This document shows, in pieces, positions 20,121 to 55,466 of a stretch of DNA of 64,000 bases. Below the pieces are notes generated by a model. The model ran no database searches, was not told where the DNA came from, and saw only the letters and a list, made by a program, of their open reading frames with translations. The stretch is from Haloplanus sp. HW8-1. Its GTDB lineage: Archaea > Halobacteriota > Halobacteria > Halobacteriales > Haloferacaceae. The number at the start of each line of letters is the position of its first letter. The stretch's first letter is position 1. The DNA lies in contig NZ_CP098518.1 of assembly GCF_023703795.1 (NCBI RefSeq), forward strand, positions 3,100,001-3,164,000, given 5' to 3'. The translations under genes and the position numbers were made by a program.

Positions 20121-20206
20121 CTATAGTAGCGATTGAAACTGCTTGCTCAGCCGATCGTACACCGTACTGCGATCAGCTGTGCAATGACGTTCAATCGCTA
20201 CTATAG
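20121..20206. repeat. 86-base palindromic element, copy A1
   Basis: The outer arms are CTATAGTAGCGATTGAA and its exact inverse complement. An inner stem AGCCGATCG / CGATCAGCT (one mismatch) surrounds a 12-base loop. It differs from the copy at 55124 at about 8 of 86 positions. Its end supplies the last codons TAT AGT AGC GAT TGA (YSSD, stop) of the minus-strand gene ending at 20191. Confidence 0.85.
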
Positions 20207-20421
20207 CCGGCGTCGGGGGACGTCTCCGTCGCGCCACGGTGGGTCGCGCCGAAGACGAAACCGGCCACGAGGAGCGCCGCCGTCCCGCCCGCCCCGACGA
20301 CGAGCGGATCGGCGAGCCCGGTCCCGGCGGTCCGTGCGGTCGCCAGGGCGATGCCGCCGCCCATCGGTAGCCCGAACAGCAGCGCCCACACGGCCCGTGC
20401 CCGCACGGTCGTCATCGGCAT
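20191..20421 (-). CDS. Small two-helix membrane protein ending in YSSD
   Basis: A 76-residue protein with hydrophobic segments at about 10-27 and 41-58. The last four residues and the stop codon (YSSD, TGA) come from the palindromic element at 20121-20206. The start is uncertain: ATG 20421, ATG 20415 two codons later, or ATG 20478 with an Arg-rich extension. It follows the cox subunit IV gene on the same strand and may be the last gene of the cox operon. Confidence 0.55.
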   Translation of the reverse strand: MPMTTVRARAVWALLFGLPMGGGIALATARTAGTGLADPLVVGAGGTAALLVAGFVFGATHRGATETSPDAGYSSD

Positions 20422-20529
20422 CGCCCCGTGCGTCGCGACGGCGGCCGACCGCCACGGGCGTCGCGCGCGACGCGGCACACGGTCCCGACGCGGGCAGGAA
20501 CGGCGGCAGTGGACGGTGTGAACACGGAT

Positions 20530-43930: not shown

Positions 43931-44016
43931 CTCTCGTAGCGTTCGTCAGTCAGCACACAGCTCATCGCATGACTGCGTGCGATCGGCTGTGTAGACAGTT
44001 ACGAACGCTACGCTAG
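43931..44016. repeat. 86-base palindromic element, copy B1
   Basis: The outer arms CGTAGCGTTCGT / ACGAACGCTACG are exact inverse complements, and the inner arms ACAGCTCATCGCA / TGCGATCGGCTGT pair with two mismatches. It aligns without gaps to the copies at 20121, 44869 and 55124 over 86 bases, sharing GTAGCG, TGCGATC and TGTGT blocks. Its right end supplies the TAG stop of the transporter gene ending at 44013. Confidence 0.8.
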
Positions 44017-44868: not shown

Positions 44869-44954
44869 CTATCGTAGCGTTTGGAACTGTTTGCACACCT
44901 GATCGCTAGACTGCGTGCGATCCGGTGTGCGATGACTTACAACGGCTACGATAA
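44869..44954. repeat. 86-base palindromic element, copy B2
   Basis: The outer arms CTATCGTAGC and GCTACGATA pair, with weaker inner stems. It aligns end to end with the other three copies. It begins one base after the pth2 stop codon (44956-44958 on the minus strand). Confidence 0.75.
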
Positions 44955-44955
44955 C

Positions 44956-45294
44956 TCAGTACAGCGATAGTTCGCCGGTCACGCGGTCCACCTCGTCGTC
45001 GTCGCCCGGCCCCACCGCCAGCGCCGTCACGGTTCCCGGCTCCAGTTGCGTGTGGCCCGCGTCGCGGACGATGGCGTTCGGCAGTCCCGCCCGCTCGGCG
45101 GCGTCGGCCAGTTCGAACAGCTGTGACTCGCCACTCCCCTTCAGGACGACCTTCTTCTGCCCCTCCCCTTTCCACGCGCGTTTCGTCCGCTCGTCGGCGT
45201 CCTCGTAGGCCGACAGCGCGGCGTGGGCGACCTGCGCGGCGAGTTTCCCCTGGCCCATCCCGACGTCGGTCCGTGCGACGATGGCCTGTTTCAT
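44956..45294 (-). CDS. pth2: Peptidyl-tRNA hydrolase, Pth2 type
   Basis: A 112-residue enzyme that frees tRNA from stalled peptidyl-tRNA. [27 protein letters not shown] at the start and [34 protein letters not shown] are diagnostic of archaeal/eukaryal Pth2. The ATG at 45294 matches the family start. The gene ends one base from the palindrome at 44869-44954. Confidence 0.95.
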
Positions 45295-55123: not shown

Positions 55124-55209
55124 CTATAGTAGCGATTGAAACTGGTTGCTCAGCCGATCGGACGCGGTACTGCGATCGGCTGTGTGATGACTTTCAATCG
55201 CTACTATAG
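55124..55209. repeat. 86-base palindromic element, copy A2
   Basis: Perfect 18-base outer arms (CTATAGTAGCGATTGAAA and its complement) and a perfect inner stem AGCCGATCG / CGATCGGCT with a 12-base loop. The right end forms the last codons YSSD and the TGA stop of the minus-strand glutaredoxin gene. All three forward frames stop inside the element. Confidence 0.88.
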
Positions 55210-55466
55210 TTCTCGGCTTTGGCGCCGTAGGTCTTCTCCAGGTAGGCGACGATGTCGTCGCTCTCGGACATCCCCTCGACGCCGTGGTCGGGGTCGACCA
55301 GCACCGGGACGCCGGTCTGTCCGCTCACCTCCTCGACTTCGGTTCGCTCGGCGTGTGCGCGTGGCACCTCGTGGGAGACGTACTCCAGGCCGAGTTCGTC
55401 GAGTTTCGTCGTGACTTTCGCACAGTAGGGACAGCCGGGCAGTTCGTAGAGTTCCAGCGATGGCAT
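55194..55466 (-). CDS. Glutaredoxin/GST-N-like thioredoxin-fold protein ending in YSSD
   Basis: A 90-residue redox protein. CPYC near residues 12-15 (ELPGCPYCAKVTTKLDELGLEY) is the redox-active pair, GVPVLVDP the cis-Pro loop, and SDDIVAYLEKTYG the C-terminal helix. The natural end is probably near YGAKAEN; the final YSSD and stop come from the palindrome. Substrates are unknown. Confidence 0.88.
   Translation of the reverse strand: MPSLELYELPGCPYCAKVTTKLDELGLEYVSHEVPRAHAERTEVEEVSGQTGVPVLVDPDHGVEGMSESDDIVAYLEKTYGAKAENYSSD

Follow-up and report, generated by a model that had tools for sequence, protein, structure and literature searches.

Palindromic elements in the window

The DNA analysed here (the window) is a stretch of 64,000 nucleotides from the genome of Haloplanus sp. 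HW8-1. It holds four copies of a palindromic element, two of them near-identical and two more decayed. These are listed below together with the two genes that read into the near-identical copies.

20121..20206, + strand: type I element, full 86-bp footprint (sequence; covariance-model match E=1e-23)
20191..20478, - strand: gene for P0002, a small predicted membrane protein ending ...DAGYSSD*; last four codons and stop from the element
43931..44016, - strand: decayed copy of the same family (covariance model E=6e-15; profile 82 bits)
44869..44954, + strand: diverged type II element (covariance model E=8e-19; profile 113 bits), arms GTTTGGAA / TTACAACGG
55124..55209, + strand: second intact type I copy (covariance-model match E=1.3e-24); orthologous glutaredoxins stop at the insertion point
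55194..55466, - strand: gene for P0001, a glutaredoxin (Pfam PF00462) ending ...AENYSSD*; last four codons and stop from the element

The type II copy lies just downstream of a gene with its stop at 44956, judged by eye to be peptidyl-tRNA hydrolase-like. The footprint at 20121-20206 is composed of C, TA (the duplicated target), an 80-bp core, TA and G (86 bp). The element is short and non-coding, with terminal inverted repeats whose arms pair over the 17-18 terminal bases. The 17-mer CTATAGTAGCGATTGAA occurs exactly four times in the window, at both ends of two elements (0.01 occurrences expected from shuffles). Nearly all aligned copies, including those from Halobacteria of several families, are exactly 86 bp, and mismatches are retained at constant internal places (columns 19/68, 21/66 and 22/65).

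Read from the right, both type I palindromes open with C TAT AGT AGC GAT TGA, the five triplets occupying the minus strand at 20205-20191 and 55208-55194. Frame 1 of the element is CTA TAG, frame 2 encodes YSSD*, and 27 residues can be read in frame 3 before CTA TAG. The first-pass annotation had stated that all three forward frames terminate in this manner, correctly on our reading of the sequence.

Two proteins extended at their stop codons

It had also been proposed that the palindrome, as a mobile repeat, gives the same C-terminus and a new stop to two unrelated proteins. Our results support this: P0001 and P0002 both finish with YSSD* inside near-identical palindromes, and the orthologues of each, without the palindrome, are also without YSSD. 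For the glutaredoxin, the original C-terminus can be fixed. Its orthologues in four related genomes (G009, G010, G008 and G006) end ...AEN* and that in G003 ends ...AAN*, exactly at the insertion point and with TAA, TGA or TAG as the stop; others stop five residues earlier, after TYGA. The element therefore entered the original TAG and replaced one stop by another four codons further on (TAG to TAT AGT AGC GAT TGA).

P0002 has no Pfam match, and its relatives within the genus are found in only three other genomes (G007, G001 and G009). These end close to the insertion point and have diverged too far for the original end to be fixed. Removal of the 82 inserted bases (the 80-bp core and one duplicated TA) leaves GAG AAC TAG in the glutaredoxin gene and GCC GGC TAG in the P0002 gene, in both cases a TAG in the gene's own frame. 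For P0002 it is this reconstructed empty site that suggests a stop-codon insertion, the ends of its diverged orthologues being slightly different.

The first-pass annotation went further and described a portable stop cassette with frame-dependent tags. This part is not supported. A cassette would carry its stop into open frames, but both empty sites in the window were already TAG in frame. Because the element targets the TA within CTAG, the stop-codon frame alone recurs; use of the other frames is rare (2 of 36 copies lie inside genes). 'Portable stop cassette' is a name for an effect, a side effect of the insertion site, and not evidence of a purpose-built tag.

Target site and TA duplication

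Orthologous empty sites were found for two insertions. At the first (L011, position 1194128 in the genome) the window's genome reads CGAGCGC CTA[...]TAG GGACCG; the empty sites read CGAGCGC CTAG GGGCCG in G001, GACGGC CTAG GGGCCG in G009 and GACGGC CTAG GGACCG in G006, and in each of these three genomes the matches to the two flanks share exactly 2 bp. At the second (L006) the empty site in G007 is GTCTAGCG, that is, CAGGTCGT CTAG CGCTCC. Since the empty sites carry a plain CTAG, with one TA where the occupied sites have two, the TA is duplicated on insertion.

Of about 110 copies, 80 have TA on either side, and the others mostly show single-base decay. C precedes the TA in 30 of 36 type I copies and G follows it in 29 of 36; the corresponding figures for type II are 51 and 58 of 68. 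Across copies the site is C-TA-G, with the preference for TA within CTAG. The same preference is attributed to IS630 of Shigella sonnei, a full-length autonomous element unlike the one described here (Tenzen and Ohtsubo 1991, as cited in PMC2170065). The transposase of ISY100, another member of the IS630 family, is alone sufficient for insertion into TA with duplication in vitro (PMC2170065). CTAG is under-represented in the DNA analysed (142 observed compared with 395 expected from trinucleotides), as is known for haloarchaea (PMC6471742).

A candidate parent transposon

An IS630-family IS of approximately 1.06 kb, with an HTH ORF and a DDE_3 ORF, occurs in two genomes of the host genus (G003 and G002) and in many other Halobacteria. 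Its ends are TATAGTAACCGTTAGAACTTTTTGC and TATAGTAGACGTTAGAAGTAATTGC and it is mostly bounded by C-TA...TA-G. The left arms of the element match IS end A at 21 of 30 bases, a fit better than or equal to that with end B, while the right arms match end B at 20-22 of 30 bases and fit it better than end A. The permutation p-value for this match is <5e-5 and remains 0.0001-0.0024 without the first 7 bases. The two IS ends differ from one another in the same way as the two arms of the element. From these comparisons we infer mobilisation by this IS; the mover of the element is probably an IS630-type transposase.

No transposase of the parent group was found in the window's genome at E<=1e-20. The only trace is an internally deleted remnant of the IS (in L075). 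A matching transposase in the same genome is not strictly required of a MITE, whose parents are often lost. Three type I copies with identical scores in G006 (G006:C1:565123, 1318729 and 2180316) suggest recent movement. That genome gave no DDE_3 (PF13358) match, and the transposase behind these copies is either missing or of another kind.

Two other candidates were rejected. A second IS630 group, present in the window's genome at G000:C1:1338016 and 1655338, gives a weaker arm match as parent (7-14 of 30 bases); copies of this group in G003 end in TGATAGTG / TCATAGTG. Single-sided BLAST matches taken as full-length transposon ends proved to be complete diverged copies of the element (L073 and L075) or a short degraded match (L072). 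As a separate observation, the IS630-type transposase at L129:1779-2791 is encoded by two ORFs that overlap (HTH, 178 aa; DDE, 163 aa), an arrangement as would be expected for expression by frameshifting.

Proposed mechanism

The palindrome is very probably an IS630-type (Tc1/mariner-like) MITE that is mobilised in trans and inserts into CTAG, including TAG stops, with duplication of the TA. An IS630-family transposase, acting in trans, would cut and paste the 80-bp core into the TA of a CTAG. Duplication of the TA would give C-TA-TAGTAGCGATTGAA...TTCAATCGCTACTA-TA-G. CTAG is scarce in these GC-rich genomes, and much of what is available outside gene interiors would consist of TAG stops, including convergent CTAG overlaps. 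Insertion at a stop would convert TAG to TAT AGT AGC GAT TGA, and each protein reading into the end would gain YSSD before stopping. Because both ends are identical over 17 bases, a convergent pair would receive the tail on both proteins. Near-neutrality of the four-residue tail would be the reason why copies at stop codons persist.

Distribution and subfamilies

With a covariance model built from 21 copies, we counted approximately 53 distinct places in the window's genome (our own count over 88 model rows). Matches were obtained in 57 of 145 sampled Halobacteria genomes, covering 26 of 58 genera, and related elements are also found on plasmids of Haloarcula, Haloferax, Natrinema and Halobellus. 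The exact 17-mer gave 14 matches in a collection of GTDB-species contigs, none haloarchaeal by title and all treated as chance; phage records contained no match to the element; and Rfam yielded no family, the best hit being at chance level (15.4 bits compared with a gathering score of 40).

The host genus carries two subfamilies. Type I has arms GATTGAA/TTCAATC and provides the YSSD* tail from both ends. Type II has arms GTTTGGAA / TTACAAAGG and provides tails of approximately 10 residues (YSSVWNCLHT* and YSSLCKSSHT*). Other families of Halobacteria carry AACTGA arms (YSSN*) and further forms. Stem pairing is kept across these subfamily changes, with changes on both sides. This is not evidence for an RNA function, since the pairing would look no different if it came from matched transposon ends. 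Only two sites are common to more than one of the genomes compared, both of them type II.

Two further observations concern individual lineages and positions. In G003 (L129-L145), approximately 20 near-identical type II copies accompany 20 IS630-type transposase matches that fall into two or more groups, which marks a recent burst in this one species. Throughout the genus, the hexamer CTATAG at the element ends has frequently decayed through T to G or A to C changes, giving CGATAG or CTATCG, and the tail YSSD then becomes DSSD or YRSD.

Insertion at stop codons and between convergent genes

We classed the copies in ten genomes of the genus by rejoining their flanks and scoring upstream coding potential on both strands; gene calls are our own codon-score calls and not curated annotation. 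A double stop is defined as a CTAG in which the TAG codons of two convergent genes overlap, an insertion there extending both genes. As a background we used the 135 CTAGs in 464 kb of the window's genome (400 kb of evenly spaced stretches together with the window). The number of sites in each class was as follows.

Type I (n=36): 14 double stops, 11 single stops, 7 intergenic, 4 other
Type II (n=68): 1 double stop, 6 single stops, 47 intergenic, 14 other
Background CTAGs (n=135): 9 double stops, 24 single stops, 59 intergenic, 43 other

Type I is clearly enriched at stop codons (25/36 compared with 33/135 for the background; odds ratio 7, p=1e-6) and at double stops in particular (14/36 compared with 9/135; odds ratio 8.9, p=7e-6). 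It also differs from type II, which lies at stops in 7 of 68 cases (p=1e-9), and continues to do so at matched GC (25/31 compared with 3/22, p=1.4e-6). The stop-codon results hold for three coding thresholds, and in the window's genome 16 gene ends carry the type I tail by the same codon-score calls.

When only GC-rich, non-disruptive sites are considered, 25 of 27 type I copies are at stops, compared with 22 of 30 background CTAGs (p=0.08). From this comparison, target choice together with the loss of gene-breaking insertions explains most of the pattern. In GC-rich DNA, CTAG targeting, the scarcity of CTAG and selection against gene disruption account for most of it. What is left over is the difference between subfamilies: at matched GC, too, type II stays away from stops although it shares the target of type I. 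A plausible conjecture is that the longer type II tail, which contains cysteine, carries a cost. Tail length as a general rule for tolerance at stop codons is not clearly borne out outside the genus (5 of 25 short-tail compared with 2 of 35 long-tail copies lie at stops, in genomes that also differ in gene density and GC).

Alternative explanations

The hairpin could be a bidirectional transcription terminator or an RNA 3'-end element between convergent genes. Both transcripts would form a hairpin of high stability (-46 to -51 kcal/mol, z about -8 to -10), 14 of the 36 type I copies sit exactly between overlapping convergent genes, and the stems keep pairing through changes on both sides. However, the pairing is expected in any case from matched transposon ends, no T-run follows the hairpin and no terminator-like site is present. 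Most type II copies and those of other lineages are not at gene ends, and the insertions are not conserved across species. We consider this explanation unlikely.

A selected stop cassette, in which type I is kept at gene ends for a benefit of the in-frame TGA or of the YSSD tail to the gene (a safe new stop, or a degradation or stability tag), is more doubtful still. In its favour are the large excess of type I over type II at stops, also at matched GC, and the ends at double-stop sites, all 28 of which keep the stop after four codons even where other positions have mutated. Against this, intergenic type I ends keep the same stop equally well (14/14). The non-disruptive GC-rich CTAGs are already at stops so often (22/30) that target choice and purifying selection nearly suffice. 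In another family, only 5 of 25 elements whose tail is similarly short (YSSN/YSSH) lie at stops, and no type I site is shared between the genomes compared.

A palindromic repeat of the REP/RAYT or IS605/PATE type, moved as single-stranded DNA, is very improbable. The element is short, palindromic and extragenic, with GTAG close to either end; a GTAG tag is reported for REP superfamilies (PMC3733652), and PATEs are common in Haloquadratum (PMC3119063). REP/RAYT movement is single-stranded and produces no target duplication, which is contradicted by the exact TA duplication at the empty sites; PATEs have neither terminal inverted repeats nor target duplications (PMC3119063), both of which this element has, and its two terminal inverted repeats match an IS630-type transposon. 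Finally, convergence or shared ancestry of the two C-termini, for which only the shared residues themselves speak, is refuted: the orthologues end without YSSD and the DNA of the tail belongs to the element.

Convergent stop overlaps as landing sites

Returning to the IS630-type MITE, where a genome avoids CTAG and an element depends on it, the sites left are mainly TAG stop codons, above all those in convergent overlaps. This provides a simple mechanical reason for small mobile repeats piling up at the 3' ends of genes, for which reports from Coxiella established no cause. A stronger version, which we put forward tentatively and judge somewhat unlikely, is that IS630-type MITEs in GC-rich genomes find a safe niche where convergent genes overlap tail to tail at a CTAG, and that type I has become adapted to this niche, the in-frame TGA in its perfect 17-bp ends returning a stop to both genes after four hydrophilic residues.

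The insertions also have consequences for annotation. When unrelated haloarchaeal proteins end in the same few residues (YSSD, YSSN, YSSVWNCLHT and similar tails), these can be insertion scars rather than domains or tags. Dozens of natural insertions per genome are available for testing the tolerance of proteins to C-terminal extensions.

Comparison with known elements

Several known repeats resemble the element in part. RUP of pneumococcus, mobilised by IS630-Spn1, is a MITE of approximately 100 bp with IS630-like terminal repeats and TA duplication, tightly folded and over-represented between convergent genes (PMC3049150, PMC2229807). It differs in its unrelated host, its length of 107 bp and its AT-richness; it is described as containing stops in all six frames, and no addition of a defined tail at stop codons is reported for it. 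ERIC/RU-1 of enterobacteria is also a fixed-length near-palindrome with TA ends and TA duplication, and in one case abolished a normal stop codon and extended an amidase (PMC2759123). However, it is 127 bp long with another sequence and a long tail, and the available part of PMC2759123 does not describe the CTAG/convergent-stop pattern. QMITE1 and QMITE2 of Coxiella burnetii, different in sequence, have their insertion at the 3' end in all affected functional genes; the authors gave no certain cause for this preference (PMC5896051), whereas here CTAG targeting supplies one. The MITEs, SMRs and PATEs of Haloquadratum walsbyi are likewise short transposase-free haloarchaeal repeats, but the ends of SMRs are unrelated to known transposons and show no duplication, and PATEs have no terminal repeats (PMC3119063). 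The main text of PMC3119063 mentions neither IS630 nor CTATAG.

Regular insertion at overlapping convergent stops was not found in the literature searched, which lay largely outside subscription journals. The element is very probably a further IS630-family MITE, with an apparently undescribed twist, the use of convergent stop overlaps as landing sites.

In G008 (L275), the convergent gap that holds the type I insertion of the window's genome at L006 is occupied by another palindromic repeat (TTATTGTAACTGTTTACCGGTGGTTCGC...TGACTTACAATAA), whose arms show the same ACTG/TGAC asymmetry. A stretch related to this repeat is found at the L011 locus of G007 (L263). It is possibly a sister MITE family that uses the same gene ends.
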